DNA of 64,000 nucleotides from Oasisia sp. SBJ-2009 (taxonomy: Eukaryota; Annelida; Polychaeta; Sabellida; Siboglinidae): assembly GCA_964017155.1 (NCBI GenBank), contig OZ024856.1:45810110-45874109 (forward strand). Reading direction: 5' to 3'. Positions 14,038 through 64,000 of the stretch are shown here, piece after piece (the first letter of the stretch is position 1; each line of letters opens with the position of its first letter). The position numbers and the translations under genes were made by a program. Below the pieces are notes generated by a model, which saw nothing but the letters and a program-made list of their open reading frames with translations, did not search any database and had not been told where the DNA came from.

Positions 14038-14605
14038 AAGGTGTTCACGTCAGAAGTATCTGAAATGGAGTGACAAAGCTACCAAAAATCGCACACATTC
14101 ACGACAACAATTGTCACATCATGTGACACACTAGAACGAAGGGCATCAAGTCACGTGATCAAACATCCACATTTGGGCCTTCGAGATAAAGAGAAAATGT
14201 GATTGTCGCTCGAGGAACAATCATTTATTTTCATATTTGAAGGCACCAACTAATTCAAGGATATCTTGATGTGTTATTGCATCTACAAGACATTCTTCTC
14301 AGAGTTCAGTTTGGTGCTGCGTGTGGGCACTGACATTTGTAGGAAAACATTTAATTGTGATGGTTTTGGAAACGTTTTGCAAAAGATGGTGTCTTAAAGA
14401 CTGCATTTTGGTACTAAGATTGGTGAGAAACTTCAAATGTGATGCATGTGGTTTACACACCTTGTTGAGCATTGTCCAATCAATTATTACTAGTGTCGTG
14501 ACGCGTCGTATGTAGAAGAACTTTGAAGTCACAAGTGTGCATCCACGCTGTGGTGCAAAACTAAAAGTGTGGTAAATGGAAACGGTTTCGCAGTGAAAGA
14601 ATTTT

Positions 14606-16673: not shown

Positions 16674-16736
16674 AATAAACGGATGTACACAAAATAGACG
16701 AGTTCTTATCTATGACGGAACTGCTTAGCCTGCAAG

Positions 16737-19127
16737 ATGCCTGAAATCGCCTGCCCCATCGAAGGACGCCCGTACAAAACTCCAGACGTGGAAGGTGTCG
16801 TCGCTGCTGCACTGATTACCACCCACGCCACGACTCACATGTCACATGCTGGTGACGGTACCTCGGCCAAGGTCGAGAAAGTCAAGCGCCCCACGATATC
16901 GTCTGCTGGAACAAGTGAGGAATGGGCATACTTTACCTCCAGATGGACCGACTATGTCGAAGCCACCCATATCACAGGCAAGGACAAGGTCATCCAGCTC
17001 CTCGAGTGTTGTGATGAACAATTGCGCAAGGACCTATCTCGCAATGCCGGAGGCTCACTCACTCACCTTGCCGTAGAAGACGTCCTCAAGGCCATCAAAC
17101 GTCTCGCTGTGCGTGAAGAAATTATCAGGGTGGCACGCGTTACACTGCACGACATGCGGCAGGATCACGACGAGCCAGTTCGAGCATTCGGTGCAAGACT
17201 CCGCGGACAAGCTGGAGTATGTAAATTCATCATCGAATGTCCACACTGCAAACACGATGTGAACTACACCGAACCAGTCCTCTGTGACAGTGTTACCCGC
17301 GGGCTCGCAGACCAGAACATACAACTGGACATAATGGGGGACCGCAACCAGAACATGAAGCTCGAGGAAATATTCCAGTTTGTGGAAGCAAAGGAATCCG
17401 GCAAGCGCTCTGCCTCACGGCTCCTTCACGCCCAGACTCAAGGAGCTGAGGCTGCTAGCAGCTCATACAGGCACAAGAAGGAAAGCCTAATCAGCAAACA
17501 CGACAACGCCGCTGGTTCTATCGAGAAGCCCGACCTATGCACCTACTGTAGCAAGAAAGGACACGGAGCGAGGTACCACATGAAACTCCGCCAGAAGGAA
17601 TGCACTGCCTACAGTCACACCTGTAAACGCTGTGGCAAGAATAATCACTTCGAGCATGTCTGCCTTGCCAGCAAGAGGAACACTTCAAGGTCGGCCAGTG
17701 ATGAACATGAAGGAGCGGTATTCGATTCTCTCTGCACCGCGTCAGATGAAGTCAGCTTTCCCAAAGTCATCAGCTTGGACCACCACCTCTACAGTCGTCT
17801 ATCTGACACATGGACCAGGACACATTCCAACCCACAGCCATTCGCCGATCTGACTGTCAGCACATCGTCGGACGACTACAGCGATCTTGGGTTCAATGTC
17901 AACATCAAGCCAAAGTCGACCATTGTCTCCTGCATGGCTGAGACAGGCTGTCAAAGTTGTCTCTCTGGCATGAAGACCATCTCGCGCCTCGGAATCGGCA
18001 CTAACAAATTCATCCCGGTAACACTTAAGATGCATGCTGCCAACAACAAAGGGATCAGAATTCTAGGAGCAGTCATCCTCAGAATCTCAGGCAAGGACAA
18101 CGATGGGAACAAATTGGAGACACGACAGGTCACGTATGTCACCGACAGCTCTGACAAGTTCTTCCTCAGCAGAGAGGCCTGCATCGAGTTGGGCATGATA
18201 TCCACCACATTCCCGTCTGTGGGCGAGATGGAAGGATCTCCAGAAACAGTCTCGGCTATCAAGGATAACAATACCGAGAGTGACAGCAGCCTCACGTCAG
18301 ACTGCCACTGCCTGCGGCGCGAGACGCCTCCACCACTACCCACAACCCTGCCATTTCCAGCTACAACAGCCAACCGCGAGAAGCTACGCCAATTCATCCT
18401 GGAGGCTTACGGCTCGAGCACGTTCAACACATGTGAACACCAGCCATTGCCAATGATGGACGGACCACCACTACACCTCATGATAGACCCAGACGCGAAG
18501 CCCGTGGCACATCATACGCCAATTCCAGTTCCAATCCCCTGGCAGGAGGACGTCAAAGCAGGACTCGACCGTGATGTCAGGCTGGGCGTACTCGAACCAG
18601 TACCTGTAGGAGAGCCGGTGACATGGTGCCATCGCATGGTTGTATGCGCGAAGAAAAATGGGAAACCTCGGCGGACGGTTGATATGCAACCCCTCAACCA
18701 GCATGCAATCAGGGAAACCCACCACACACAGTCACCTTTCCACCAGGCACGGTCAGTACCACCAGGTACACTCAAAACCGTGTTTGACGCATGGAACGGG
18801 TACCACAGCGTCCCACTGAAAAGAGAGGACCAGTACCTCACAACATTCATCACACCATGGGGAAGATACAGATACCGCACAGCGCCCCAAGGATACATCG
18901 CCTCAGGGGATGGCTACTCAAGGCGTTTCGACGAAATTGTATCGGACTTCCCCAACAAGACCAAGTGCATCGATGACACACTACTGTGGTCAGACAATCT
19001 GGACGATAGTTTCTTCCAAGCATGCAAATGGCTTGACATATGTGGACGGCACGGAATCACCATCAACCCAGAGAAATTCGTATTCGGTCAGGACATTGTT
19101 GAATTCGCCGGCTTCCAAATCACATAA
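16737..19127 (+). pseudogene. Gypsy gag-protease-reverse transcriptase polyprotein, broken
   Basis: The frame is open for 796 codons. Residues about 45-245 resemble a gag region. Cys/His-rich knuckles lie at about 265-312 (CTYCSKKGHGARYH, CKRCGKNNHFEHVC). The protease motif near 398 reads AETGCQS, where DTG is expected. The reverse transcriptase spans about 595-796, with the YxDD equivalent CIDDTLLWS near 743. A stop at 19,125 ends the frame inside the reverse transcriptase-RNase H linker. The expected continuation (VPRNITDIRSWFGLVNQV) follows at 19,167-19,370, then the MITE. Loss of the protease Asp, the stop and the MITE together show it is inactive. Confidence 0.85.
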
Positions 19128-19370
19128 GATAGTGTACAACCATGCAATCGATTCCTGAGAGCCATCATGGAATTCCCTGTTCCGCGTAACATCACCGATA
19201 TCCGCTCCTGGTTCGGACTCGTCAACCAGGTGTCATATGCATTCAGCATGACTGACCGTATGCTACCCTTTAGATCTCTCCTCAAACCTGGCACGTCATT
19301 CGAATGGGATGACACAAAGACCCAACTTTTCGAAGAATCCAAGGGAATCATCGTCAATGAGATAGAACAG

Positions 19371-19904
19371 GGGCCAGTTTCATAGCGGCTACTTACGACG
19401 TCGTAGCGGGCGATAACCCGTCGTAAGCCTAAGACGTCGTAAAGTTACACTAGTTGCGTTTCATGAGTCTGCTCCATAGTTGCACTTAGCTGCACCATGT
19501 ATTTAGTAGGCGTAACTTTACGCTGGTTGAAATATTTACGGTATGCTCCCGAAATTGAAAATGTACGGTATGCTCCCGAAGTTGAAAATGTACCGTATGC
19601 TCCCGACACGCTCACTCTCAACATTATTATTTTTAATGTATACACTGGATATCATTTACATTCATCATAGCTTCCCATTTGCTATACGAACGACAAAGGC
19701 ACAGCTAGAAAGAAAAAAGGATGCTCAGACACATCACAAATACAGGGATACCCCACCGCGACGTAAGGGGGTCAATGCTACTGGCGCGAATGCTAAATTG
19801 GTCTCATGAAACCGGCCGTACGCTGCATTGTCTATTCGCTGTTAGCTACGACCAATAGACCGCGTAATTGCGCGTAACGTTACACGGCTTCATGAAACTG
19901 GCCC
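19371..19904. mobile_element. 534-bp MITE inside the Gypsy RNase H region
   Basis: GGGCCAGTTTCAT at the left end is exactly mirrored at the right end. Flanks are CAG (19,368-19,370) and CTG (19,905-19,907), consistent with a 3-bp CWG duplication. The Gypsy protein reads across the join (NEIEQ then GVKIFDKTRPTC), confirming the insertion. Inside are a TACGACGTCGTA palindrome near 19,393 and three tandem copies of about 27 bp containing GTATGCTCCCGA (19,540-19,605). No gene. Confidence 0.8.
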
Positions 19905-19907
19905 CTG

Positions 19908-20361
19908 GGCGTCAAGATATTTGACAAGACCAGACCGACCTGCCTCGCGAGTCGCGACAGACTGGTCCAAGACTGGCATCGGATTCTGGCTCTTCCAAAA
20001 ACACTGCTCATGCACAAAAGTTGCTCTGTTCTGCTGCTCCTCGGGATGGAAAATTACACTGGTCGGCAGTCGATTCACTCATGCAGCTGAATCACGCTAT
20101 GCAACCATAGAAGGGGAAGCTCTAGCCGTCGCCGACGCCCTGGACAAGGCAAGGTATTTCGTCCTGGGATGCAAGGACCTGATCATAGCAGTTGATCACA
20201 AACCACTGCTGAAAATTGTCGGTGATCGCGCACTGGATGACATCTCGAACAACCGCCTCAGGAACCTGAAAGAGAAGACGTTGCGTTACAAGTTCACTAT
20301 GATCCATATCCCAGGCGGAAGATATCGGAAGACGGGGGCGCTGCATTGGAGAGGGTGGTAG
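19908..20361 (+). pseudogene. Gypsy RNase H domain fragment
   Basis: The frame reads TRPTC, ATDWSKTGIGFWLFQKHC, SRYATIEGEALAVADALDKA, VDHKPLLKIVGD and RLRNLKEKTLRYKF, the usual RNase H core of this Gypsy group. It carries visible Asp and Glu residues (DWSK, EGEAL). It continues the polyprotein after the MITE, and the frame ends at 20,361 without tether or integrase. Confidence 0.85.
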
Positions 20362-31902: not shown

Positions 31903-32692
31903 ATTCTGCAGCCAGCTTTGTCAGTTTCAGCCTTTGCATCTTTTAACACAGAAAGTGACATTTATTTTCATAACCTATTTTATTGATTAGTGGGATTTTA
32001 AAAGCATTTATGCAATGGAGTGTGTGTTAAGCTGTGCTTAGATTAATATGTACTTGTTATTATGATGTTGTTTCAGATAACAGTATCATCTGTCGAAAGG
32101 TGTTATCATCAGATGTATCTGAAATGGAATGACAAAGCTGCCAAAAATCACACACATTCACAACAACAATTGTCACATCCTGTGACACCAGAACGGAAGG
32201 TATCAAGTCACGTGATCAAACATCCACATTTGGGCCTTTAAGAAAAATAGAAAATGTGATTGTCGCTCGAGGAACAATAATTTATTTTCGTATTTGAAGA
32301 CACCAACTCATTCAAGGATAGTCAAGCGTGACTAAATTATTCTCTGACTGATGAATCATCTTGATGTGTTAATGCATCTACAAAACATTCTTCTCAGAAT
32401 TCAGTTTGGTGCTGTGTGTGCGCACCGACATTTGTGGGAAAACATTTAATTGTGACGCTTGTGGACACGTTTTACAAAAAGATGGTGTCTTAAAGACTGC
32501 ATTTTGGCACTAACATTGGTGAGAAACTTCCAATGTGATGCATGTGGTTTACACACCTTGTTGAGTATTGTCCTGCCAAGTACTAGTGTTGTGACGCATC
32601 GAACTTTGAAGTCACAAGTGTGCATCCATGCTGTGATGTAAAACTAAAAGTGTGGTGAATGGAAACGGTTTCGCAGTGGAAATATTTTCAAT
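31903..32692 (+). other. Upstream block of zinc-finger copy 2 with splice acceptor
   Basis: Conserved with copies 1, 3 and 4. GATGTTGTTTCAG (ending 32,076) is kept in all four and looks like a splice acceptor. The downstream part contains decayed finger words in shifted frames (CDACG near 32,455 and 32,535). It probably includes 5-prime untranslated exon sequence; no promoter can be defined. Confidence 0.6.
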
Positions 32693-33751
32693 ATGGCTGT
32701 GAATGTGAACACTTGTACTATTGAGAAACCGTTCAAATGTGACACTTGTGGTAAAAGTTTTTTACACAATAATGGCTTATGGCAACATGTTTCCATTCAT
32801 ACTGGTGAGAAACCATACAAATGTAATACCTGTTGTGCAGAATTCTCACGAAATAGTAATTTGAAGAGTCATGTCCGTATCCACACTGGGGATAAACCAT
32901 ACAAGTGTGACACCTGCGGTGCACAATTCTCACAATGTGGTAATTTGAGGTCCCATGTCCGTATCCACACTGGGGATAAACCATACAAATGTAATACATG
33001 TGGTGCACAATTCTCGGGTAGTAGTAATTTGAAGAAACATATCCGCATCCACACTGGTGAGAAACCATACAAATGTGACACGTGTTATGCACAATTCTCA
33101 CAACATAGTAGTTTGAAGACACATATCCGTATCCACACTGGGGATAAACCATATAAATGTGACACCTGTGATGCACAATTCTCACGATGTGGTACTTTGA
33201 AGTCCCATGTCCGTATCCACAACGGGGATAAACCATACAAATGTTATTATACGTGTGGTGCACAATTCTCGCGCATTAGTAATTTGAAGACACATATCCG
33301 CATCCACACTGGGGATAAGCCGTACAAATGTGATACCTGTGGTGCACAATTCTCACAAAGTTGTAATTTGAAGTCCCATGTCCGTATCCACAATGTGGAT
33401 AAACCTTACAAATGTGATACTTGTGGTGCACAATTCACACAGAATGGTAGTTTGAAGATACATGTCTGTATCCACACAAGGGATAAACCGTACAAATGTG
33501 ATACCTGTAGTGCACAATTCTCGGGTACTAGTAATTTGAAGAAACATATCCGCATCCACACTGGTGAGAAACCATACAAATGTGACACGTGTTATGCACA
33601 ATTCTCACAAAATAGTAGTTTGAAGACACATATCCGTATCCACACTGGGGATAAACCGTACAAATGTGATACCTGTCATGCACAATTCTCGCACAGTGGT
33701 AGTTTGAAGAGACATGTTCATATCCACACGAGACAAATCACGCAGATGTGA
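32693..33751 (+). CDS. C2H2 zinc-finger protein, copy 2 (12 fingers)
   Basis: The protein has 352 residues: a short leader MAVNVNTCTIEKP, then 12 C2H2 fingers with HTGD/EKPYKC linkers. The role is probably nuclear DNA binding. The ATG at 32,693 is chosen because the MA(V/E)N start is shared with copies 3 and 4. Finger 7 reads CYYTC, with one extra residue between the two cysteines, which may weaken zinc binding. Backbone residues are almost constant, while helix contact positions vary between fingers. No KRAB, BTB, SCAN or SET domain is visible. The frame ends after HIHTRQITQM because of a small deletion; decayed fingers continue to about 34,040. It may be functional, but the abrupt end is suspicious. 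Confidence 0.8.
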   Translation: MAVNVNTCTIEKPFKCDTCGKSFLHNNGLWQHVSIHTGEKPYKCNTCCAEFSRNSNLKSHVRIHTGDKPYKCDTCGAQFSQCGNLRSHVRIHTGDKPYKCNTCGAQFSGSSNLKKHIRIHTGEKPYKCDTCYAQFSQHSSLKTHIRIHTGDKPYKCDTCDAQFSRCGTLKSHVRIHNGDKPYKCYYTCGAQFSRISNLKTHIRIHTGDKPYKCDTCGAQFSQSCNLKSHVRIHNVDKPYKCDTCGAQFTQNGSLKIHVCIHTRDKPYKCDTCSAQFSGTSNLKKHIRIHTGEKPYKCDTCYAQFSQNSSLKTHIRIHTGDKPYKCDTCHAQFSHSGSLKRHVHIHTRQITQM

Positions 33752-35745: not shown

Positions 35746-36104
35746 TGGCTTTTTATTTACATAACGATCACTCCGTTGACAGACGGCATTTGCCATGATT
35801 TGGGTCAGGTTATCATGTCAGACGGGCTTTGGGCCAAGTTATCGAAATGTGCGAAGTATTTCGGCTAACACAGGACACCAGCTATTACAGGTATAATGAA
35901 AATATGGATGTTTTACTTCGTTATTATGGAACAACTTCGTCAATTACAACCAATGGCATATTTTAAAATGCGGGTGCTAACATGAAGACATTACACACGC
36001 GCGGCACGCGTTGTTCCCGCGGTAATGTCCCTTCCTGCCAAGTGTGCGCGCGCAGAGGTAATGCCGATTTACCAAGATCCAGTGTTCTGCCATTGCTTTT
36101 GTTA
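35746..36104. other. Spacer, no gene recognised
   Basis: Short open frames near 35,963-36,283 overlap the family X head and have no domain. Confidence 0.35.
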
Positions 36105-36459
36105 GAGAGCTCACCTGTGACTCCATCTCGCAGAAACAGTTTAATCGAGGCTGGTAACAAACGGTGGCGCCTCCAAACGGAAAGTGAATTGGAAAGTAGT
36201 CTGACAAGTCCCACTCGCAAACTTACTAACTTCAGTTGTATAATTGGATACCCGTGTAATTTAGTGGATACTGCCTTCTGCATTGCTCAAGGTTTGTGTT
36301 GGGTTGTATATAGCTAGGAACAACAGTAGTGAACGTAGGATTTGTGACGCCTTGTATTAAGTTTTAAATATCAAGTTACTGCTGCGGGCGATAAATGAGT
36401 GTCCAAGTCCAAGATCAAGTTCAAACACTAGACAGTACTACTAGGCTGGCTGTGGTATC
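36105..36459. repeat. Family X head, left part of the copy split by the 4.67-kb element
   Basis: It matches 62,403-62,788 (AGTTTAATCGAGGCTGGTAA, GTGTTGGGTTGTATATAGCT, TACTACTAGGCTGGCTGTGG). At GGTATC the match breaks and resumes at 41,128, so the same copy continues after the inserted element. Confidence 0.85.
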
Positions 36460-36931
36460 TGATGTAAGACCACCAAAAGGTGCACGTCCGCCATTCCCCG
36501 ACCGAAGAGTGCCCTATAAAATCAGCATTATGCAGGTTGTGTGAATTTATGTGAGCACATATGTAGTGTGGAGTGATTATAAATGATGTTTTTGTGCAGC
36601 GTGGCATCAGAGACAGAGGGGTCAGAGCTATCAAATTATGTCAGCTGTCAGTCGGTGCATTTCTGCGTATTAATACAGTTGTCATTTTGCTTGGTGATGT
36701 AATCAGGGGCAATCCGTGGTAGGTTCAAGCAGAAATGGAGGGATGTAAGGTTTGAAAGACGTTTGTGGGAGCCTGAGGTATTAAAAGTTCACGAATTTTT
36801 CACTGAACCTCTGTCTATGGATGGTAAATATGCTGTGAAATTGTCAATAACAGAACTGATTAAGATTAATAGGAAATGAAGGAAACGTTATAATGGTCGC
36901 CTATGGAAAAATGCAAATGTGGTCTCGCTCC
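36460..36931 (+). repeat. Left terminal direct repeat
   Basis: 472 bp, nearly identical to 40,672-41,127. The main difference is 15 extra bases near 36,608. It contains a TATAAAAT box at 36,515 and an open frame at 36,703-36,876 that is in register with the endonuclease frame beyond a TGA at 36,877. Confidence 0.9.
36515..36522 (+). promoter_or_regulatory. Possible TATA box in the direct repeat
   Basis: TATAAAAT preceded by GTGCCC, about 400 bases upstream of the endonuclease open frame. The same box occurs in the right repeat at 40,727. Promoter function is inferred from sequence only. Confidence 0.3.
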
Positions 36932-37371
36932 TATTTAAATTTTGGACTATTCCATCTCCTTGCCAACGCATCATCAGAAAAAGATGGAGGACGATTTCAT
37001 TAAAAAAATACACGGCAAGGATAAAGAGGGAAACACAGCTGGCTCCAAATGGACAATGTATTATCTGGACTGGCTGTACTGCTAAGGGTAGAGGGGAGTG
37101 CTTATATGGGAAAATATATGTTACATTTTTGCGTGGTGGCAAATACAAGTGGCAGGCGTTTCGTGTCCATCATCTAGCATACATTTTGCACGTGCGAGCA
37201 GAAATCCCTGAAAATATGCACTGCAGCCATCGCTGTCACGATAGTTTGTGTGTCAATGTTGAACATCTGACCATAGAACATGCATTTGTGAACAGTAACA
37301 GGCGGTCTTGTTCTACAGCAAGGAAATGCTTTGGACACTGTGAAGCCCCATCTTACCTTTTTTTTAAATAA
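36880..37371 (+). CDS. I-PpoI-like His-Me finger (HNH-type) endonuclease, start not defined
   Basis: The open frame carries CIIWTGCTAKGRGECLYGKI, then FRVHHLAYILHVRAEIPE, then CSHRCHDSLCVNVEHL and an Asn about nine residues on (AFVNSN). This is the layout of the zinc-bound loop of I-PpoI-type homing endonucleases: catalytic His in SHRC, Cys/Cys/His zinc ligands and a downstream Asn. A second Cys-rich group (RRSC...KCFGHC) resembles the second zinc site. The function would be DNA cleavage. No ATG lies near the start, and a TGA at 36,877 separates an in-register open stretch of 58 codons. A spliced first exon, readthrough or decay are all possible. Confidence 0.7.
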   Translation, partial: RKRYNGRLWKNANVVSLLFKFWTIPSPCQRIIRKRWRTISLKKYTARIKRETQLAPNGQCIIWTGCTAKGRGECLYGKIYVTFLRGGKYKWQAFRVHHLAYILHVRAEIPENMHCSHRCHDSLCVNVEHLTIEHAFVNSNRRSCSTARKCFGHCEAPSYLFFK

Positions 37372-37835
37372 TCAGTAAATCACATGACTTGACATAAAGG
37401 TAATTGCAATTAAGTAATTAATTAATCATCAATCAATTAACTAATTAATCAAGGTAACTGTCATTACTCATCATTCATTATATAAGCTGTTTGCCTGAGT
37501 TTGTGTAATGCTTACCTCCATTCAAGTCAATCTGTGCATCTCTTGTTCATTGTGTTTGCAGATGAGGTGTGACATTCTCTCCATTGTTGATTGCTTGCTG
37601 GGGTGAGGTGAGGTGAATCAACCTGTGTGTGCTGTCGTTGACACTTCTTCAACGTCAGCTTTTTGTTGACATGACAGCCTCGTTGCGGACGGATGGATGC
37701 ATGGATACGCAGTGTGCACACTTACATGTGATATGGGTAAGTGTGGTCACCACGTCTCGATCTGTCACTGTTTGAATAATGCTGATCACTGCCGGTCTTC
37801 TTGTTGACAGCTGCTGTGTTTGTTTGGGTTTCTTT
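37372..37835. other. Spacer between the convergent genes
   Basis: AT-rich with many TTAATTAA-like words at about 37,400-37,455. No gene. Confidence 0.5.
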
Positions 37836-39855
37836 TTAAACAGGTCTGTCTAGCTGCCCTTTCTGATACGTTTCTCTTCGTGCAGCTGCCCTTGTCTCAG
37901 CAGTAGCCTCTCTTCGGCGTCTGGCAGCGCGGACAGCATCGAATTGCTTTCGTTTGTTGGACGCCAGGCGCATTCTGACTGATGGACGACGCATGTATGC
38001 CCGGTGGTACAGCGCCTCACGCTGTATTTGCCGTGTCGTGCTTGCAACACGGCCGCCTTTGCTAATAGGAGCCTTGTTTGATTCGAGTTTCCTCAACATC
38101 GAAGCTCCGGCTCCGTAGTTCAGCCGGTCAATGGCTGCACACGCACGGCCCGTGACCGTGCGTGAAAACTTGACGTTCTTTGGCAGGGTAGCAGATAGGC
38201 CGCGGTTCAGTGACTCATTTCGGTTCGTATTCAGGCACAGTTTTGTCATCGCCAGTGCCTGGGCTCCTATTCTCATCCGAATGACATTTCTCAGAGTGAC
38301 TCTGTCTCGATCAGTCATGTTCAGGTAGTGGATCTGTGCTGTCTGGAGGTGCATCGATCTGTGCCACCAACTTGTTTTTTTGCCACCTCCACACACAACT
38401 GAGTAGTACCTGCACTTTGTGCAGTCTCCGCCATAACAATTCAATGTTGTCTCGATGACGCATGGCATCAGTGCAGAAACCTTTCTGCTGTCACCGGCGT
38501 GCATATCCAGCATTTCCCTGTGGATTCTGTGGCAACGAGTCTTCACATCCAGTGAGAAATGTTTCCTCTGTTCTTTACGGATCACTGCAGTGGATCCAGG
38601 AAACATGCGGGGGCTGAACTTCGCTTTCATGCTGTTTCGAAACACAGATTGCTCCAGGTGTGTGGTATCTGCTAGACGCTCAACTACGCACGATGTACCA
38701 GCCATGCCGGCCTTCACGCCCTCGGCACTGCGAGCATCCCCGTCTGTCACTACATACCTGATGCCAACATTTTGCTTTGCAAATTGTCTCCCAATATCAA
38801 TTCCTGGTACGTACTGGTTGGTCAGCTGGCAGTGTCGCAGTGCAGTTTTTGTGACCTGGATAGGTCACGACTAGCCCTCGTCTTCGCATTGACGCACCCA
38901 GAGCACACAGTTTGTTCTGTATGCTAATGCCAACAATGTCACTGTGACCTGACTATTTTTCAACGGCAACAGCAATGGCCTGACTTGCATTTTGCCCTGC
39001 ATGGTATGCTCCTGTGATGGTTGCTGAGTTATAACGGGAATCCATTGCAATATTGATCGGTGAATCCTCAGGAAAGCCACGCAATCTGTTCACATGCTTA
39101 ACCCTTTTTCGTCTCATCGCTAAATCCTCCAGTGTCATAGTTGCGGTTGCAGCTGCAACTTTATTTGCGGTTCTCTGCATAACGCTGCGATTCGGGACGG
39201 GTAAATTCAAGCAAGTCAGGATCACACGCCCTTTCACATTGCCTGTCGTCGATTCCTGAAGTCCTACCTGCAGGCCGACATTGGGTGTCGCTGGCTTCTG
39301 ACCCCGCTTTCCCGTCTCGATTTCGTTGTACAGCTTGTATAGGCTGGATGTGAATCCACATTTTCTGCAGCGCAGAGCACACTGCCAACACAACCCGACC
39401 TTTACCTCTCTGCAAATGGTAAATTCAGGAATGGCACACTTGTTTTCCTCGGCTGAATGCAGCCGTATGCAATCATTATACATCTGTTGCATTTTCCCCT
39501 TCTCATAAAGGCGCATCTCCTCCTCGCGACTGTCGTCTGGTTTCTGGTAGGCTGACAGTAACTCGTCATCGTCGGACACACAGTGTTTCGGCCTCAATAG
39601 CTTTGCCTCGCCACATCGGCCTTCGGCATCGGGAATTTCGATGAGCCCACATGATGTCACCTTTGCCACTCGCTCGAACTCGACTTCAGTGAGACGTGAC
39701 ATCCACGTCGCCAAGCTTTCACTTTCACTTTCCTGCACAGCCCTGCTGTGCATCCTCGTGACGTATACAGCATGGCCCTTCCTAAAGCCACGTTTTCTAT
39801 CATTTTTGGGTTTCACACGTGGCTGGACATTACCAGACGCATTACTCATGATCAC
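37836..39855 (-). pseudogene. MULE-like DDE transposase, two frameshifts
   Basis: The minus-strand protein starts MIMSNASGNVQPRVKPKNDR at 39,855. It shows a zinc-ribbon-like CWQCALRCRKCGF, then NIAMDSRYNSATITGAYHAG (first Asp), VVTDGDARSAEGVKAGMAG (second Asp), a Cys cluster (CYGGDCTKCRYYSVVC) and NTNRNESLNRGL (candidate Glu). The C-terminus is rich in Arg/Lys (RRRREATAETRAAARRE). A stop (TAG, about 38,955) and a second frame change (about 38,800) break it; in between, VGISIQNKLCALGASM and PGHKNCTATLP are readable. I place it with Mutator-like transposases found in many invertebrate genomes. Its role would be cut-and-paste or copy-type transposition of its element. Confidence 0.75.
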
Positions 39856-40671
39856 AGTTATTACAGAGGCAACAGAATATTCAAACCGGGCTCAACAGAG
39901 ATGTCAGCTGTAATGACAGACTACTGCTAACCCAATATGGACATGCCAGATTTAAGAGACGGGGGCACATGATTTGCTCCAGGCTAGCTATTGGCTGCCA
40001 CCATAATGTCGTGTATATCTGAATTGTGATTTACAACCCTCACCCTTTCAAATAAGTCACATTTGGGACATCTGCCCAGCTGAACAGGACTTTTAGAGGG
40101 CAACCAATGAGACAGGCCTGTATTCTGGTGGCTCTCATTGACATGTAGCTGTGTGTGAGGTGAAACCAGGATGTTGTAAAATTGTTTGATGTGACAATTA
40201 TTTTGTACCAAAAAAATGCAACAATACACATTTTCTTTTCACACTGTCTATAATTCGTGAAGTAGAGAAGTCCCATTATGCACAGAAGTCATCTTAATAC
40301 AGGTAAATGGTCAAGATTTTGTGACGAAAAAGAGAGCGTACTGGATAATATTTTTTTTCAATAAAAAAATACACCATATATGTTGAATGAGATGCTTTCA
40401 AGGTCAATGGAGTGTATACAGTGAGGCATCGACATCAGAATGTGTATATTTATAGCACAGCAACTAATGCATGGGTCCAAAATCTTGTCGATATGCGTCA
40501 TGCATGGCACATTGGAGTTTACTGCCCAGCAGACGGGTGTCTGCTTCAAAGACATCACAATTAATATTCGCTGTATCACTCGCAATTTCCATAGACCATT
40601 TTTTGAGATGTATGCATTGCTTCAATATTATATCATTTTTGTGAAAATTTGAGACATTCAGTGAATCTATT
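39856..40671. other. Non-coding segment between transposase start and right repeat
   Basis: No domain-bearing open frame. It would hold the transposase promoter, but no clear box is visible. Confidence 0.4.
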
Positions 40672-41127
40672 TGATGTAAGACCACCAAAAGGTGCAAGTC
40701 CGCCATTCCCCGACCGAAGAGTGCCCTATAAAATCAGCATTATGCAGGTTGTGTGAATTTCTGTGAGCACATATGTAGTGTGGAGTGATTATAAATGATG
40801 TTTTTGTGCAGCGTGGCATCAGAGCTGTCAAATTATGATTGCTGTCAGTCGGTGCATTTTTGCGTATTAATACAGTTGTCATTTTGCTTGGTGATGTAAT
40901 CAGGGGCAATCCGTGGTAGGTTCAAGCAGAAATGGAGGGGTGTAAGGTTTGAAAGACGTTTGTGGGAGCCTGAGGTACTAAAAGTTCACAAATTTTTCAC
41001 TGAACCTCTGTCTATGGATGGTAAATATGCTGTGAAATTGTCAATAACAGAGCTGATCAAGATTAATAGGAAATGAAGGAAACGTTATAATGGTCGCCTA
41101 TGGAAAATGCAAATGTGGTCTCGCTCC
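40672..41127 (+). repeat. Right terminal direct repeat
   Basis: 456 bp, same orientation as the left repeat. The 58-codon open stretch is kept here too, ending at the same TGA. Differences in that stretch include three silent and two amino-acid changes. It ends exactly at the target duplication. Confidence 0.9.
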
Positions 41128-42912
41128 ATCTTGTGATTTATTGTACGCCCTGAAATAATAGACAAATTCCAGCATTACTACTGCAACTCTGTTCCTAATT
41201 ATTGGTAACGTTCTGTGCCGTAAACATTGATGATTTATTTTGTTTGTCCATATATGATATTCGCCATCACTACATCAGCGTCAAAATTTAGGGTGGTTGT
41301 AGGGTGGTCGGACCAAATTTTTCTTTCGAAAAAAAAAATAAAAAAAAAGTTCCCTGAGAGTAGTTACTATAAGAAGTATAATGGTAGTTGTTTCATGTAT
41401 TTATGTGAAATATTAAGCAAACTACAGATGTTTATTAAAGTTACAAATTTCATGAAATTTTCTGACGGTTTGCTAGGTATGTGTAATTTTGCTTATAAAC
41501 CACAAACATTAAATTGTTTCTATTTTCCACTGGTCATAATCACTAATTGAAGTGTAACTGTGCTTGTTTCAAGTATGTAGATGAAATATTAAGGAAACTG
41601 AAATGTTATGAAATTTCAAATAAAAGAAATTTCCGCCAATTTTCTTACAGATTTAATCTTGCCAATAAATCTTAGAATTGCTTTCATTTTTTCTTCTGAT
41701 AATAGTAATTAATTAAAATGCAATGGTGCTGCCTTCAATTACATAGATTAAGTATTAATGAAACTGCAATTTTATTTTATTTAAAAATTGTTTTATTTTT
41801 TCTGAACATTCTCCTATTTAATTTTATACCTAAATCACAAGATTTTTTTTTAATTATACTGATTTTGTGTAAACTGTGATAAAGGGCAATACATACCTAT
41901 TTTAAAAAATTCTATTAATTTATATAAAGTATCATAATTTTTTCAACAATAGGTTGTACAAATATTCTCAAAACTAAATACTAATTCATGTAAAACTGTC
42001 ATCAAAGAATACCCCAGTAACGACATACAAAAGTCATGTATAATATAATTTTATAAACATTAATGATAAATTATCAATTTTAATTAAAAAACATTGTATA
42101 TTTAATGTAGCCTAACCAACACACAAAAGTATGCATAGTATGCTAAAAAAGGGAAATAATACAATAATACCAATAAACAAACTAATGTAAATTAGCTACA
42201 TTAAACATGGCACTAATTAATTAGTTTACACAGTTACATGTGCTAGCGTAAGTACTTGCTAACTATTTATAATAGTATTAATCAAAGACACCCGTTGTCG
42301 ATATCAGAGTGCTTTGCATACCACAATGCATCGCACGCACAGGGAACAAGGCAAAATGGCGATGTCTTTTGAGACAGGGGCTCCATTAACGGACTTTGTG
42401 GCAATTTGTGCTATCAATTAGTAAGTCATCACTATAATCATATTATCGTCCACACAATTCTTTACACTTCTGCGTATGAAGCAAGTTGAAGCAACCAAAA
42501 TAAATAGTCACAAAACATCGTTAAACATAGGCCATTTTAATTGACTAATTACTACAACTTTTTATTTAATTTATCTTTCTTCTTTAATTATAACTTTTCA
42601 AAATTATTTTTTATCATTAACATAATCTCGCAAGCAATCTCGACAGAAGGGGCCTGTCAACATGATCCAACATGGCTGCAGGCATAAACAATGAAAATCA
42701 AATACAACACCGAGAAGAAGAAAAATCATTAACCGCTCTCTAGCATCACCAAAAAATCAGCTGTCAGCATAGAATCATGGACTGACATTATAACAACATG
42801 AAAAAATTATAAACGAACAGGTATGTTGTGTGATTATAAACTACGGCGACTAAATCCGGACCCCTGTCTCCCCATGTTGTCAGAAGGGGTGGAAAATCGG
42901 TCTGACCTCCCA
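41128..42912. repeat. Family X copy B (continuation after the insertion)
   Basis: It resumes ATCTTGTGATTTATTGTACG after the inserted element and runs through the same AT-rich landmarks as copy A. A terminal segment (CACCAAAAAATCAG to CACCATGTTGTCAGAAGG-like) repeats at the end of copy C. Confidence 0.8.
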
Positions 42913-45897: not shown

Positions 45898-46533
45898 TCA
45901 CTAACTTCACCTGATGTTGTTTCAGGTAACAGCAACATCTGTTGAAAGGTGTTCACGTCAGAAGTATCTGAAATGAAGTGACAAAGCTGCCAAAAATCGC
46001 ACACATTCACGACAACTGTCACGTCCTATGACACACCAGAACGGAGGGCATCAAGTCATGTGATCAAACATCTACATTTGGGTCTTTGAGAAAAAGTGAT
46101 TGTCGCTCGAGGAATAATCATTTATTTTAATATTTGTAGACATCAACTCATTCAAGGATATTCAAACGTGACTAAATTATTCTGTGAATGATGAATCATC
46201 TTTATGAGTTACTGCAACTACAAGACATTCTTCTCAGGGTTCAGTTTAAGCGCTGTGTGTGCGTAGTGACATTTGTGGAGGGGGAATGTAAATGTGATGC
46301 TTGTGGAAACATCTTTCAAAAAGATGGTGTCTTAAAGACTGCATTTTGGCACTATCATTGGTGAGAAACTTCAGATGTGATGCATGTGGTTTACATATCT
46401 TGTTGAGTATTGTCCAGTCAAGTACTAGAGCTCACTTGGTTGTAACACAACGCCATATGTAGAAGACACAAGTGTGGATCCACCCAGTGGTGCAAACCTA
46501 AAAGTGTGGTGAATGGAAACAGGTGTTTTCAAT
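45898..46533 (+). other. Upstream block of zinc-finger copy 3 with splice acceptor
   Basis: GATGTTGTTTCAG ends at 45,925 and is followed by GTAACAGCAACATCTGTTGA. The rest matches the upstream blocks of copies 1, 2 and 4, including the decayed CDACG words. Confidence 0.6.
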
Positions 46534-47301
46534 ATGGCTGAGAATATAAGCACTGGTACTATTGAGAAATTATTTGAATGTGACACTTGTGGTAAGCATT
46601 TTTTAAATGTTTGCATCCATGCAGGTGAAAAACCATACCAGTGTGATACATGTTGTACACAATTCTCGCAAAGTAGTAGTTTGAAGAAACATATCCATAT
46701 CAAGACTGAGGATAACCCATACAAATGTGATACCTGTGGTGCACAATTCTCAAAAAGTGATAGTTTGAAGAAACATATGCGTACCCACACAGGGGATAAA
46801 CCATATAAATGTGATACATGTGGTGCACAATTCTCACAAAGTTGTAGTTTGAAGAAACATATCCGTATCCACACAGGGGATAAACCATATAAATGTGATA
46901 CCTGTGGTGCACAATTCTCACAAAGTAGTAGTTTGAAGAAACATTTCCATATCCACAGTGGGGATAAACCGTACAAATGTGGTACCTGTGGTGCACAGTT
47001 CTCGCACAATGGAAGTTTGAAGGAACATGTCCGTACCCACACTGGTGATAAACCATACAAATGTGATACCTGTGGTGCACAGTTCTCGCAGAGGGGAAAT
47101 TTGAAGAAACATATCCGCAACCACACTGGTGATAAACCATTCAGGTGTGATACCTGTGGTGCACAATTTTCATTAAATGGTAATTTGAAGTCCCATGTCC
47201 GTATCCACACAGGGGATAAACCATATAAATGTCATACCTGTGGTGCACAATTCTCACAAAATGGTAGCTTGAAGAGACATATCCGTATCCATACGGGATA
47301 A
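46534..47301 (+). CDS. C2H2 zinc-finger protein, copy 3 (seven sound fingers)
   Basis: Starting at the conserved MAEN ATG (46,534; another in-frame ATG lies 21 bases upstream), the protein has 255 residues. Finger 1 is collapsed (CDTCGKHFLNVCIH, about nine residues missing). Finger 2 lacks its last His (HIHIKTED). Seven standard fingers follow. The frame ends HIRIHTG by a small deletion, and three more finger-like units follow in other frames to 47,589. The loss of finger 1 and the early stop suggest decay, but the core array could still bind DNA. Confidence 0.7.
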   Translation: MAENISTGTIEKLFECDTCGKHFLNVCIHAGEKPYQCDTCCTQFSQSSSLKKHIHIKTEDNPYKCDTCGAQFSKSDSLKKHMRTHTGDKPYKCDTCGAQFSQSCSLKKHIRIHTGDKPYKCDTCGAQFSQSSSLKKHFHIHSGDKPYKCGTCGAQFSHNGSLKEHVRTHTGDKPYKCDTCGAQFSQRGNLKKHIRNHTGDKPFRCDTCGAQFSLNGNLKSHVRIHTGDKPYKCHTCGAQFSQNGSLKRHIRIHTG

Positions 47302-53080: not shown

Positions 53081-53740
53081 TGTTAGATTCACTAACTTCA
53101 CCTGATGTTGTTTCAGACAACAGCAACATCTGTCGAAAAGTGTTCACATCAGAAGTATATGAAATGAAGTGACAAAGCTACCAAAAATCGCACACATTCA
53201 CAACAACAATTGTCACGTCCTGTGACACACCAGAACGGAGAACATCAAGTCACGTGATCAAACATCCACATTTGGACTTTCGAGAAAGAGAAAATGTGAT
53301 TGTCGCTCGAGGAACAATAATTTATTTTCGTATTTGAAGACACCAACTCATTCAAGGATATTCCAGTGTGACTAAAATATTCTCTGACTGATGAATCACC
53401 TTGATGTGTTATTGTATCTATAAAACATTCTTCTCAGAGTTCAGTTTAGTGCTGTGTGTGCGCACTGACATTTGTGGGAAAATATATAATTGTGATGGTC
53501 GTGGAAACGTTTTACAAAAGATGGTGTCTTAAAGTCTGCATTTCAGCATTAACATTGGTGAGAAACTTCAGATGTGATGCATTTGGTTTACACACCTTGT
53601 TGAGTATTGTCCAGTCAAGTACTAGAGCTCACTTGGTTGTGACACAACGCCATATGTAGAAGAACTTTGAAGACACAAGTGTGCATCCACCCAGTGGTGC
53701 AAACCTAAAGGTGTGGTGAATGGAAACAGGTGTTTTCAAT
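53081..53740 (+). other. Upstream block of zinc-finger copy 4 with splice acceptor
   Basis: GATGTTGTTTCAG ends at 53,116. The block aligns with the equivalents of copies 1-3 and contains the same decayed finger words. Confidence 0.6.
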
Positions 53741-54841
53741 ATGGCTGAAAATATGAGCACTAGTACTACTAAGAAATTATTTGAATGCGACACTTGTGGT
53801 AAGCGTTTTTCACGCAATAATGGCTTAATGCAACATGTCCGCCTCCATACTGGTGAAAAACCATACAAATGTGATACCTGTGGTGCACAATTCTCACTAA
53901 ATAGTCATTTAAAGACACATATCCGTATCCACACTGGGGAAAAACCATACAAATGTGATACCTGTGGTGCACAATTCTCTCAAAATAGTGGTTTGAAGTA
54001 CCATGTCCGTATCCACACTGAGGAAAAACCATACAAATGTGATACCTGTGGTGCACAATTCTCACAAAATAGTGGTTTGAAGAGACATGTCCGTATCCAC
54101 TCTGGGGATAAACCATACAAATGTGATACCTGTGGTGCACAATTCTCACAAAATAGTGGTTTGAAGTACCATGTCCGTATCCACACTGGGGATAAACCAT
54201 ACAAATGTGACACCTGTGGTGCACAGTTCTCAGGATATGGTAGTTTTAAGTACCATGTCGGTATCCACAATGGAGATAAACCATACAAATGTGATACCTG
54301 TGGTGCACAATTCACGTACGGTAGTACTTTTAAGAGACATATCCGCATCCACACTGGTGATAAACCATACAAATGTGACACCTGTGGTGCACAATTCTCA
54401 CGATATTGTCATTTGAAGAAACATATCCAAATCCACACTGGTGAGAAACCATACAAATGTGATACCTGTGGTGCACAATTCTCACACAGTAGTAATTTGA
54501 AGGTACATATCCGCATCCACACTGGGGACAAACCATACAAATGTGACACCTGTGGTGCACAATTCTCACAAAGCAGTGGTTTGAAGCACCATATCCTTAT
54601 CCACACTGGAGATAAACCATACAAATGTGATCTCTGTGGTGCCCATTTCTCACGCCGTGGTAGTTTGAAGTCCCATGTCCGTATCCACAGTGGGGATAAA
54701 CCATACAAATGTGACACTTGTGGTGCACAATTCTCACACATCGTCATGGACGTTGGGTGTAGTCTCAAGCCTGACGTAAATATAGCACAGATACAGGGGG
54801 CTTTCATCCAGGGAGAATATTTTATTATCTATACGCCCTGA
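53741..54841 (+). CDS. C2H2 zinc-finger protein, copy 4 (11 fingers, fused tail)
   Basis: From the conserved MAEN ATG the protein has 366 residues: MAENMSTSTTKKLF, then 11 complete C2H2 fingers, then half a finger (YKCDTCGAQFSH) that runs into IVMDVGCSLKPDVN. The tail is the common 3-prime block (untranslated in the other copies) read in frame, so a deletion at about 54,740 fused array and tail. Contact residues (-1, 2, 3, 6) differ widely between fingers (for example R/N/G/Q, L/S/H/T, R/C/H/K, H/S/N/V), while the framework is nearly fixed. It is the best-preserved copy and a probable DNA-binding protein. No effector domain is seen; an upstream exon could supply one. Confidence 0.8.
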   Translation: MAENMSTSTTKKLFECDTCGKRFSRNNGLMQHVRLHTGEKPYKCDTCGAQFSLNSHLKTHIRIHTGEKPYKCDTCGAQFSQNSGLKYHVRIHTEEKPYKCDTCGAQFSQNSGLKRHVRIHSGDKPYKCDTCGAQFSQNSGLKYHVRIHTGDKPYKCDTCGAQFSGYGSFKYHVGIHNGDKPYKCDTCGAQFTYGSTFKRHIRIHTGDKPYKCDTCGAQFSRYCHLKKHIQIHTGEKPYKCDTCGAQFSHSSNLKVHIRIHTGDKPYKCDTCGAQFSQSSGLKHHILIHTGDKPYKCDLCGAHFSRRGSLKSHVRIHSGDKPYKCDTCGAQFSHIVMDVGCSLKPDVNIAQIQGAFIQGEYFIIYTP

Positions 54842-58382: not shown

Positions 58383-61300
58383 TATGCAGGTATTGCAATC
58401 CAGGTATTGCAATACCTCAGGGAGTTTGACGCCCCTGCCATGCAGAGTTGTAAACCACTGCCTTATGGTACAGGTTCTTGTCAGAACCGAAGGCTAAGGG
58501 AGCAAACCCTAACCAGAAAACCATGTCACTGTGGCAGCATCAAGGGCAGTTGATGTATGGAACTCCCAACATCTCTCGACCAGCCACTGCAGGGACAAAT
58601 AGTTTGCGCCTGTCTTGACATGTTCTTGCCGGTGTGAGACCTATATTTGTTCCCCGAGAGAGTGTCGCTAGTAACTTGCAAAAGCCAGCGGCACTTCAAC
58701 AATTTTTGCTAGCAGCTTCCATGAAATGTACAACTGCACGAAACATGATACCGGATCGGCCGTCGCCCGGGTTACCAAGGACCGCGCTGCTCGACCTCAT
58801 CTTCCATCGACAGTGAAACATCAGCTAGGAAGAAGAAGACAAAGAAGACAACTACTGACAATTGGACAATGGAACGTCAGGACTCTCCTCGACCGAGAAG
58901 GAGCTAACCGACCAGAAAGACGTACGGCACTAGTAGCAATGGAACTTGCCAAATACAACATCGACATTGCTGCCCTATGTGAAACAAGGTTCTCAGAGTC
59001 TGGTAGTCTCAACGACTTGGAATACTCTTTCTTCTGGAGTGGCAAACCCGAAGGAGAAAGAAGGGAGGCTGGAGTGGGCTTTGCTATCAAAAAGGATATC
59101 GTCACAAAGCTGACAGAAATGCCACGGCCAGTAAGTGACAGAATCATGACGATGAGACTACCTCTGAGCAAGGACAACTTTGCTACAATTACCAGCGTGT
59201 ATGCTCCGACAATGACAAACCCAGATGAAAACAAGGAGGCCTTCTACAACCAGCTGGCAAGTGTGCTCAGTGGCATCCCTCGTACAGATAAGCTACTGCT
59301 GATAGGAGACTTCAATGCGAGGATAGGAAGAGACAATGACAAGTGGCCCTTGGTCATGGGCAAACATGGGATTGGGAAATGCAACTCCAATGGCGAGCTT
59401 CTACTGGCTCTGTGCTCTGAGTTCGAACTGATAGTGACGAACACCATGTTCAAGCAGAAGGATGAACGCAAGACCACCTGGATGCATCCTCGTTCCAGAC
59501 ACTGGCACATGATCGACTTCATCATCACGAGGTGCCAGGATAAGATGGACATCCACAGTACCCGAGCCATGCGTGGAGCAAACTGTTGGACCGATCACCA
59601 GATGCTGAGGTCAAAAGTGGCTTTCAGAATACGACAAAAGCACAGCAGGCAAGGAACAAGTAAGCCGACCAAGCTCAACACAGCAAAACTAAGTACCACC
59701 AGCCATAGGGAGAGTTTTGAGCAGGAGATGGACAGTGCTCTCGCCCAATGGGAGGAAAAGGAAAACTCAACACCAGACGAGAAATGGGCAGCTCTGCAGC
59801 AGGTCGTGTACAACACAGCCAAGACATATTTTGGCAAGCCAGACAGAAAACACCAGGACTGGTTCGACCCCAACGACCAGGAGCTAAAAACTCTTATGAG
59901 CAGAAGAGACCAAGCCCACCTGAGAGTGTTGCAAACCAGGAGCACTAGATCCACTACTGCAGCATATAAAGACGCCTGCAGACTGCTACAAAAACACACC
60001 CGTGCACTGAAGTCAAACTGGTGGGAAAGGAAGGCAGTGGAGCTGCAGAGAGCTGCTGACAGTAACAACATGAAGGGCTTCTACAATGGACTGAAGGAAG
60101 TGTGGGGACCCAAAAAGAAGGGACCTGTTCAACTGAAATCAGCAGATGGAATGGAGACCTTCTCTGACAGCAAGAGAGTTGTGGCAAGATGGAGTGAACA
60201 CTTCCAGAAGCTACTCAACGTCCCTGGAGACATAGATCACGAAGCTTTGGACAACATCCCGCAGCGCATTATCAAGACAAGCCTAGATGAGATTCCAACT
60301 ATGGATGAGATGGCTAAAGCAATCGCCGGCCTGAAAGATGGCAAAGCACCTGGAGGAGATGGAATTCCTGCAGAAGTATGGAAGCACGGAGGAGACAATC
60401 TGTTCAGCAGACTGCACCAACTAATCACCAATGCCTGGGAGGTGGGTTCTGTACCACAAGCATGGAAGGATGCCAGCATTGTAACCATCTACAAGAAAGG
60501 TGATCGAACAGACTGTGGGAACTATAGAGGAATCTCTCTTCTTTCCATAGCAGGCAAGATCTTCGCCAGGATCCTACTCAACAGACTATCTACCCACATA
60601 ACACCAGAGGTAGTTCCAAAGACTCAATGTGGCTTCAGAGGTAACCGGAGCACCGTGGATATGATATTTTGTCTCCGACAACTACAAGAAAAGTGCATTG
60701 AGCAGGACCGACCACTCTACATGGTATTTGTCGACTTCAGTAAGGCGTTCGATACAGTTGGGAGGACCGGGCTATGGCAGCTACTGAGGAAGTATGGATG
60801 CCCAGAGAAGTTCACAACAATGATCGAGGCACTACATACCGGAATGATGGCGAATGTTAGTGTTGGAGGGGAAGTCTCGGAATCGTTCAGTGTCACAAAT
60901 GGGGTCAAGCAAGGATGTGTACTGGCCCCCACGTTGTTCTCCATCTTCCTATCAGCAATGCTCGATGATGCTTTCCGAGACATGGGGGATGGCGTCTACA
61001 TACAGTCCAGACAGAGCGCTGACCTATTCAACGTCGCACACTTCAGAGCGAAGACCAAGACTACTCGGATACTAATGAGAGAGCTGCTATTCGCAGATGA
61101 CAGTGCACTGGTTGCACACTCTGCTGAAGAGATGCAGAATATAGTGGATGCTTTCTCCAATGCGTCAAATAAGTTTGGCCTGAAGATTAACATCAAGAAG
61201 ACCGAGGTGCTGTACCAACCCAACTCTACAAGAACCCGAGAGGAGGATATCATGGTTGATGGAAACAAGTTGAACTCTGTTCTGGAATTCACCTACCTCG

Positions 61301-61901
61301 GAAGCACTATATCAATTGATGGATGCATTGACGATGAAATACAGAGGAGGATGGCCAAGGCTAGTGCATCTTTCGGCCGGCCGACTACACCAGAGACTCT
61401 GGAACAACCACCATGTGTCCATGCGGGTTAAAGGCAAGATATACCGTGCAATCGTGCTGTCCATCCTCCTATACGGAGCCGAGGCCTGGACAGTGTACAG
61501 ACGACAGGTGAATAAGCTGCATGCCTTCATGATGCGACATCTGCGATCGATCATGAGGATAACCTGGATGGACAAAGTGACAAACAAGGAAATACTCGAA
61601 CGGACAGGGCTGCCATCTATGGAAGATCTTCTGATCAGAAAGAATCTCCGGTGGACTGGACACCTCATGAGGATGTCACCAGATAGGCTACCAAAGCAGG
61701 TTCTCTACTCCCAACTGTCTTCTGATCAGAGAAAGAGAGGGCGCCCTCGTCTCCGGTTCAAGGATACCATCAAGAGAAACCTGAAGCTGAGAGACATAAA
61801 GATCGACTCCTGGACATCACTCTCACAGCAGAGAGCTAGAATGGAGAGCAACAGTCAAGTGATGGAAGCAGTCTTGTCGCTTCGCGACCGACAGCATGAT
61901 G
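58383..61901 (+). mobile_element. Nearly full-length LINE (RTE-like) with 22-bp target duplication
   Basis: ATTATAGTGATGCTTGT and the next five bases stand at 58,361-58,382 and again at 61,902-61,923, with one mismatch over 22 bases. Between them lie a 5-prime untranslated stretch of about 340 bases, one large ORF and a very short 3-prime end (GCATGATG). The clade is judged RTE-like from the single ORF and short tail; this is not certain. Confidence 0.85.
58726..61900 (+). pseudogene. LINE endonuclease-reverse transcriptase, one frameshift
   Basis: The first 901 codons are open. An AP-type endonuclease lies at about residues 45-270 (IGQWNVRTLL, CETRF, IGDFNARIG, TWMHPRSRHWHMIDF, TDHQM). The reverse transcriptase carries GKAPGGDGIPAEVWK, VDFSKAFDTVGR (about 673), NGVKQGCVLAPTLFSIF and FADDSALV (about 788). 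The frame breaks near 61,370: GGCCGGCCG occurs where one GGCC fewer would keep the C-terminal part (VSMRVKGKIYRAIVLSILLY, RNLRWTGHLMRM) in register. That part runs in the next frame to 61,901. Apart from this 4-base duplication, motifs look intact, so the copy is young. Confidence 0.85.
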
Positions 61902-62402: not shown

Positions 62403-64000
62403 TTAGACAGCTCACCTGTGACTCCATCTCGCGGAAACAGTTTAATCGAGGCTGGTAACAAACGGTGGCGCCTCCAAACGGAAAGTGAATGGGAATGTAG
62501 TCTGACAAGTCCCACTCGCAAACTTACTAACTTCAGTTGTATAATATTTAGTGAATACTGCCTTCTGCATTGCTCAAGGTTTGTGTTGGGTTGTATATAG
62601 CTAGGAACTACAGTAGTGAATGTAGGATTTGTGACGCCTTTGATTTAAGTTTTAAATATCAAATTACTGCTGCGGGCGATAAACGAGTGTCAGACAAAGA
62701 TAATGTTAAAACACTAGAATATAATATGTATGGCCAGGCACTAACTAAGGCAGTACAGTAGCCAGTACTACTAGGCTGGCTGTGGTATCTTGTGATTTAT
62801 TGTACGCCCTAAAATACCAGACGTCGAATGCCAGCGTTACCAGTGCAACTCTGATCCTAATTATTGGTAACGTTCTGTGCCGTAAACATTTATGATTTAT
62901 TTTGTTTGTTCATCATGTAGCGTGTGGGTACCTTTCATCGACACTGGACGACAGGGTCCCTAATGATCGACCGTTTCATAAATGCAATAACTTTGGTGTT
63001 GACTGTTACTGTACTAACATAATTGGGTAAGTATATGTGCAAACAAATATATGACATGCAACAAAAAAGAATAAAAATCATTGTTGACAAATCATTACTC
63101 AAGTTTATGTGCTGAACGGTCATTCATTAAGTATTTTGTCACCAAATTGTATCAAACTATTTTTTGGTGTTTGTTGAAATCGTCAATGAATATGCTTTGA
63201 ATAGAAAATAATTTAAATTGCGTAAATTTACATCAAAGGCGAATAAAACGCGGAAAACTACGCTTAAACGGTCGATCATAGGTCCCCCGACGCTATGTCA
63301 TGAGTGACACTCGTCATCAGCGTCAGCATTTTCTGTAGGAAATTGTTTAATGTTCCCCGACAGTAGTCACCATAAGAAATTTAATGGTAGTTATTTCATG
63401 TATTTAAGTGAAATATATCAGCAATCTACAGATGTGGAAAGTTACAATTTTTTGACGTTTTCTGACGGCTTGATCATCACTAATTGAAGGTGCTGGTTTC
63501 ATGCATGTAGATGAAATATTAACGAAACTGCAATTTTATGAAATTTCAAATAAAACAAATCTGACTCTTTTGACAGATAATAGTAATTCATTAAAATGCA
63601 ATGGTGCTTCATTCAAGTACATTTACTTATTACTTCAGCACACACGTTACAATTGCAGGATATTGAAACATCACTTTTTAGCAGTAAACTCTTGACGTCT
63701 ACATGGATGAAATATTAATAAAACTGAAATTTTACACAAATATCCATTTGGTAAATTTTATCGAACATTCTATTTGATTTTGTACATTAATCACAAGAAG
63801 CTTACTTCTGTTCAATTATACTGGTTTTGCTGTAAACTATGATGAAGGCCAATACATACCTCATTTTTTAAATCAGTTTGTATAATTTTATAATGTGTCA
63901 TATATTTTTCAACAATATTATATATACTCAACAACAAATAATATTTCATATAAAATTGTAATCAACAAATACCCCAGTACCGACATATAGAAGTCGTGTA
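62403..64000. repeat. Family X copy D (head plus tail, runs off the window)
   Basis: The head matches 36,105-36,459 and continues uninterrupted into the tail at GGTATCTTGTGATTTATTG (about 62,785), so this copy lacks the 4.67-kb element. A 336-bp MITE lies within. The copy continues past the window end. Confidence 0.85.
62953..63288. mobile_element. 336-bp MITE in family X copy D
   Basis: Inverted ends share ATGATCGACCGTTT after a variable GGGTCCC-type tip. Flanks are GAC on both sides (62,950-62,952 and 63,289-63,291). Copies A and B lack the segment. No coding capacity. Confidence 0.6.

Follow-up and report, generated by a model that had tools for sequence, protein, structure and literature searches.

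Organization of the element

The window studied here is a stretch of 64,000 nucleotides from the annelid Oasisia sp. SBJ-2009 (assembly GCA_964017155.1, contig OZ024856.1, positions 45,810,110 to 45,874,109 of the forward strand), which is eukaryotic, has 40% GC and comes from C3 of the genome. Positions 36461-41127 hold an element of 4667 bp in which two long terminal direct repeats (LTDRs) enclose an internal region (INT) with a transposase gene and a convergent nuclease gene. Based on the comparisons presented below, this block is understood, with little room for doubt, as one decayed copy of an autonomous DNA transposon of the KolobokP type, LTDR-INT-LTDR. KolobokP was described in 2022 (Kojima and Bao, Mob DNA 13:24; PMC9587614), with 228 families in 7 animal phyla; statements attributed to that article refer to portions of its text. 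The features of the locus are as follows.

36457..36460: left target-site duplication, ATCT, placed from the flanks, the empty site and other copies
36461..36931: left LTDR, 471 bp, from repeat comparison, with a boundary common to other genomic copies
36461..36473: terminal inverted repeat, outer left arm GATGTAAGACCAC, matching the other arm at 9 of 13 positions
36932..36936: first bases of INT, TATTT, recurring at its other end
36984..37371, plus strand: His-Me finger (His-Cys box, I-PpoI-type) nuclease gene with an early frameshift; matching frame 37000-37368
37725..39849, minus strand: DDE transposase gene (PF20700; Kolobok-type) with stops and a frameshift
40668..40672: final bases of INT, TATTT
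40673..41127: right LTDR, 455 bp, from repeat comparison and other genomic copies
41115..41127: terminal inverted repeat, outer right arm GTGGTCTCGCTCC; reverse complement GGAGCGAGACCAC
41128..41131: right target-site duplication, ATCT, placed as on the left
62763..62800: empty site in a paralogous stretch, with a single ATCT at 62787-62790

The sequence-only reading from which this work departed had recognized the direct repeats at both ends; they are real, and their lengths are corrected here from 472 and 456 bp to 471 and 455 bp. The pair is 94% identical, with 12 substitutions over 455 aligned bases and 16 gap columns. The outer inverted arms share an in-register run of 7 identical bases, equalled by 19 of 20,000 random segments, and the overall agreement of the arms by 49 of 20,000. 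Elsewhere in the genome, the outer ends of two short elements (L014, L015) and of a solo LTDR (L028) read GGCGTAAGACCAC and its exact complement, hence form perfect 13-bp inverted arms. At least 5 shared bases at the ends of INT, as given by TATTT, were found in 38 of 20,000 random segments. In the orientation of the transposase, the element termini are GG...TC, that is, RR..YY.

Empty site and target-site duplication

The paralogous stretch reads through the insertion point at 62787-62790 with one ATCT, in agreement with the empty site noticed earlier at 62.8 kb. Its segment 62400-62718 matches 36099-36432 at 90%, the segment 62763-62790 agrees with 36433-36460 in 28 of 28 bases, and the right flank beyond the element carries on the match. 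Taken by itself, the window copy permits a duplication of ATC or ATCT, with a T preceding GATG in both repeats. We conclude that the target duplication is 4 bp long and that the element begins at GATG, because the duplications of 17 elements fit such ends; the 3-bp ATC proposed from the window is thereby replaced by ATCT. The 17 elements having both outer ends comprise the window copy, four other full copies, two short elements and ten solo LTDRs, the count leaving out five partial or multimeric loci (L013, L018, L019, L022, L025). An exact 4-bp duplication is present in 14 of them, and in the remaining three (L017, L021c, L027) after adding 1-6 mutated bases; BLAST ends of the short elements and of some solo LTDRs were extended by a few bases before scoring. 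Points placed at random 4667 bp apart shared at least 4 bp in 130 of 20,000 trials.

The duplications vary by site (AGTT for L009, AACT for L010) with a mild bias, the first base being A in 12 and the last base A or T in all of the 14 exact cases. None of these 14 is TTAA.

Copies of the element in the genome

Searching the source genome (764 Mb, 33 contigs) with the LTDR gave 2440 candidates, the best 40 of which were scored, all at 91% identity or above; the repeats examined are the two in the window and 27 in fetched stretches, which were picked by their LTDR matches and on which BLAST of LTDR and INT was run. These stretches hold at least five further LTDR-INT-LTDR copies (L009-L013), with the same INT between the same repeats and the same ends, together with the two short paired elements, four partial copies and solo LTDRs. 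The other full copies are 4601-4674 bp long, and 29 other LTDRs that were cut out measure 449-465 bp, some with ends extended by hand. In none of the copies examined did the two genes sit in separate elements, the repeat flank them by chance, or the ends lie elsewhere, outcomes which the sequence-only reading had named as decisive against itself.

Three copies on three different contigs are particularly informative. Over 4.67 kb, L009 shares 99.85% identity with L010 and 99.51% with L013, and in each the two genes are open, encoding a 713-aa transposase and a 127-128-aa nuclease. Because these copies are near-identical, retain both genes and, in L009 and L010, lie between different duplications, the evidence suggests that a single unit containing the two genes moved recently. 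No substitution separates the LTDRs of L009, those of L010 and the solo LTDR L016 (0 of 455 bases within the L009 pair and within the L010 pair). The solo repeats whose presence had been anticipated were found with their own 4-bp duplications, ten in number, 7 exact and 3 after extension.

The long direct repeats, the solo repeats and the identical repeat pairs of the young copies L009 and L010 would also be expected of a retrotransposon-like unit, of the LTR or DIRS type, that has lost its reverse transcriptase. We regard this origin as extremely unlikely. As had been noticed from the sequence alone, no reverse transcriptase match was obtained among the three element open reading frames (ORFs) scanned, and the reverse transcriptase ORFs found in the window lie outside the element. 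In L009, L010 and L013, apart from the transposase and nuclease genes, the only ORF of at least 100 aa starting from ATG is a 107-aa frame corresponding to a window frame antisense to the transposase. The ends, GA..CC or GG..CC, differ from the TG..CA of LTR retrotransposons (rule as given in PMC9587614).

Derived forms of the element add to this picture. The short elements L014 (2983 bp) and L015 (2992 bp) have a largely different interior without ORFs of at least 100 aa from ATG; 19-20 of their differences from L009 are common to both LTDRs and 2-6 are private to one. In the older copies, namely that of the window, L011 and L012, 2-4 differences from L009 are common to the LTDR pair and 12-15 are private, as would be expected of repeats that were identical or nearly so when inserted and decayed afterwards. 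Judged from L014 and L015, LTDR pairs seem to change in concert. At one locus, L033, an INT is followed directly by a second INT, with one TATTT at the join and no intervening LTDR. Since the INT-INT join keeps one TATTT, the LTDR behaves, as judged from these junctions, as though it were a transposon inserted into INT and flanked by a duplication of its own. A rearranged multimer was observed where L013 meets L029 (G000:C10:33045800-33056300); it consists of LTDR-INT-LTDR and a 1.6 kb portion of another INT, which abuts a piece of LTDR in inverted orientation; one of the LTDR/INT junctions contains additional bases.

The LTDR itself contains an open frame (36583-36876 and 40795-41073 in the window), with 58 codons following a stop; similar ORFs have been called on many other contigs. 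A protein encoded by the LTDR was considered and the simple gene was rejected. A string of 91 aa, made by joining two frames of the LTDR, found matches in 136 of 138 candidates, with E up to 1; the 120 matches listed divide into 45 that fit one frame, 37 that fit the second and 38 that fit both, and sequences among them change frame at differing places. In the consensus of 31 LTDR copies, the two halves are separated by a stop, and there is no intact 93-codon frame. The matches look like DNA copies and not like a gene; the frame may be a spliced exon.

The transposase and nuclease genes

The transposase is recognized by Pfam as PF20700, 'Mutator-like transposase', in two pieces on the minus strand (E 3.2e-29 and 8.6e-14). 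Compared with an intact relative, the window gene is broken by two stops, one of them in frame at 38953-38955 and the other at 37836-37838, and by a frameshift near 38.8 kb; one Cys of the CCHC finger reads Tyr, in a region that is broken. Aligning 44 of the 84 relatives found, we identified as invariant (numbering of P0001) the catalytic D272, D374/D376 and E546, the DxxH motif at 399-402, the CCHC residues C317/C332/H335/C338 and the cysteines C476/C484/C491, while C481 is nearly invariant; either Asp of the DGD may be the catalytic one. The transposase tree was built from the relatives and three mollusc proteins (P0070, P0072, P0075).

The earlier description of the transposase as MULE-like agrees with the Pfam family name and not with the features of the element. 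The name would also favour a Mutator-like (MuDR) element that captured a nuclease and is flanked by chance by an unrelated direct repeat. MULEs usually make duplications of 8-11 bp, whereas those found here are of 4 bp. The direct repeats bound the same INT in five other copies and carry the outer ends (the stretches having been picked by LTDR match), and in its DxxH motif, its CCHC finger and its second Cys cluster the transposase agrees with KolobokP, not with MuDR. Taken together, a MuDR origin appears very improbable.

The nuclease ORF, on the plus strand and convergent with the transposase on the minus strand, matches PF05551 above the cut-off (E 1.6e-9; Pfam scan of three element ORFs), which bears out the proposed I-PpoI-like assignment. 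In the window the gene is broken, the start codon at 36984 being out of frame with the remainder when compared with an intact relative. For the nuclease P0086, the best match in the PDB is I-PpoI, gapless over 37 residues at E 1.4, hence not significant by score. The alignment places S97, H98, C100, C105, H110, E114, N119 and C125 in register, of which C100, C105 and C125 are zinc ligands. S97, H98, H110, E114 and N119 are given as conserved in the published account (PMC9587614). A PDB search with the window nuclease frame returned a chance match only (E 0.55). P0001 is 100% identical to L018 and P0086 to L010; both sequences therefore most likely come from the same species as the genome studied, so that they are not independent witnesses.

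Relationship to KolobokP and other transposons

In uniting a DDE transposase, a homing nuclease and long direct repeats, the element is unlike the textbook classes, and the sequence-only reading had suggested a new type on this ground, as one of two possibilities. Such an undescribed class is very unlikely, for the text portions of PMC9587614 drawn on here report an identical architecture with the same lengths and ends, and likewise the genes and the derived forms; the type has been in print since 2022. According to these portions, KolobokP has LTDRs of about 450 or 660 bp, and autonomous families of the Pacific oyster measure 4,022-4,748 bp; the LTDR has its own terminal inverted repeats, up to 18 bp long and perfect or imperfect; the termini are 5'-RR / YY-3', with duplications of 3-4 or 4-5 bp and no strong preference; the DDD/E transposase shows a DxxH motif, a CCHC finger after the first D and a zinc finger before E; a His-Me nuclease gene lies downstream on the complementary strand; solo LTDRs and multimers occur; and an INT-INT junction retains one INT-end repeat, TATA.

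All eight features that we examined against these portions of PMC9587614 are present in the element or its family here, namely LTDR length, total length, inverted ends of the LTDR, RR/YY termini, duplications, transposase motifs, a nuclease on the complementary strand, and solo and multimer forms. The likeness thus extends from the LTDR-INT-LTDR form of 4.0-4.7 kb and the LTDR of about 450 bp to the DDE transposase and the convergent His-Me nuclease; the difference is that the window copy is dead and its inverted repeats have diverged. Other Koloboks, as characterized in the same portions, resemble the element in having a DDE transposase with DxxH and zinc fingers and RR..YY ends, but duplicate TTAA and have neither long direct repeats nor a His-Me nuclease. 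The canonical TTAA rule does not apply to the element (ATCT, AGTT, AACT and others), and KolobokP itself departs from it likewise. With I-PpoI and the His-Cys box homing endonucleases of group I introns, the nuclease shares the eight residues in register; unlike I-PpoI, it resides in a DNA transposon, not an intron, and insertion sites have no common sequence beyond the mild bias. Among the papers listed by the literature search, PMC9587614 alone deals with an element of this kind, and none of 68 pattern matches on viral contigs was confirmed.

Several observations weigh against the interpretation advanced here. The inverted repeats of the window copy match at just 9 of 13 positions. The element is placed in Kolobok by its motifs and architecture, and the activity of its enzymes is a prediction from sequence. 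For the nuclease, a PDB profile search with a 4-row alignment gave no match, and the predicted structure has a mean pLDDT of 39.7, too poor for use. Scanning the LTDR for a homing site was likewise negative: shuffled sequences equalled the best palindrome in 425 of 500 cases and the best likeness to the I-PpoI site in 281 of 300. Lastly, the pattern of LTDR differences in the window copy, L011 and L012 would fit decay after insertion and lends no support of its own to concerted change.

Proposed mechanism

The DDE transposase, read leftwards, would most likely move the whole LTDR-INT-LTDR unit and perhaps single LTDRs too; the latter is conceivable because every LTDR carries inverted ends of its own. 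Insertion creates the 4-bp target duplication. In the published model, as set out in the portions of PMC9587614 used here, the His-Me nuclease would not choose the insertion site. It would instead cut within or at the ends of the LTDRs, thus provoking unequal exchange, and repair from another LTDR would expand or restore the composite structure and keep the LTDR pair alike. What can be seen directly in the genome are the ends and duplications, the presence of the two genes together in several copies of near-identical sequence, the solo LTDRs, and the INT-INT and multimer forms. Movement of the unit by the transposase is the probable case, and the action of the nuclease would be that of the published model.

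Tandem arrays of nuclease relatives

A genome search with the nuclease (best 150 of 328 candidates scored) revealed relatives at about 49-58% identity that sit in tandem arrays. The largest array (G000:C6:43871855-43995401) has at least 35 nuclease matches over 123 kb, mostly 3616-3633 bp apart, 34 of the 35 being without a stop. From the spacings we had guessed that it is devoid of LTDRs. A further LTDR search (best 40 of 1896 candidates scored) refuted this, for 25 of the 40 scored places are in the C6 array, each directly before a nuclease match, so that an LTDR lies directly upstream of the nuclease in at least 25 units. Further arrays on C13 (20922315-21079013) have at least 9, 13 and 10 nuclease matches, and those on C14 (9623506-9700606) at least 15 and 4, the nuclease frames being open in some cases and broken in others; in a C13 array, one pair of units shows complete identity over 3396 bp. 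A looser cluster of at least 8 closer nuclease relatives (77-87%) is found on C12. The largest structures named in the portions of PMC9587614 considered have four INTs, e.g., LTDR-(INT)4-LTDR, with the remark that tandem insertions are under-counted; the C6 array, with its 35 nuclease matches, is longer than any multimer named there.

It is a tentative and on balance unlikely proposition that the homing nuclease, via induced unequal exchange, drives KolobokP into arrays of satellite scale, where the frame of the nuclease would be maintained or homogenized. Counter to it, all 13 nuclease matches of one C13 array and 8 of the 15 of a C14 array have a stop, and the identical units may mean merely recent growth. 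If the proposition were true, the nuclease would be a selfish gene at the level of the array, partly uncoupled from transposition.

Surroundings in the window

Duplicated C2H2 zinc-finger ORFs are arranged around the element (14597-15064, 32648-33748, 46513-47298 and 53720-54838, the last one Pfam-checked). Retroelement fragments with reverse transcriptase, endonuclease and RNase H domains are present at 2084-2995 and 10220-12685 on the minus strand and at 16716-20358 and 58675-61428 on the plus strand.

Implications

The Pfam name 'Mutator-like' can mislead annotators on the KolobokP lineage. The Oasisia genome provides a chromosome-scale example of KolobokP, in which recently moved copies (two of them, on different contigs, being 99.85% identical), an empty site, solo LTDRs and long arrays are found together, and it is suited for a test of the model of nuclease-induced unequal crossover that was put forward to explain the multimers.

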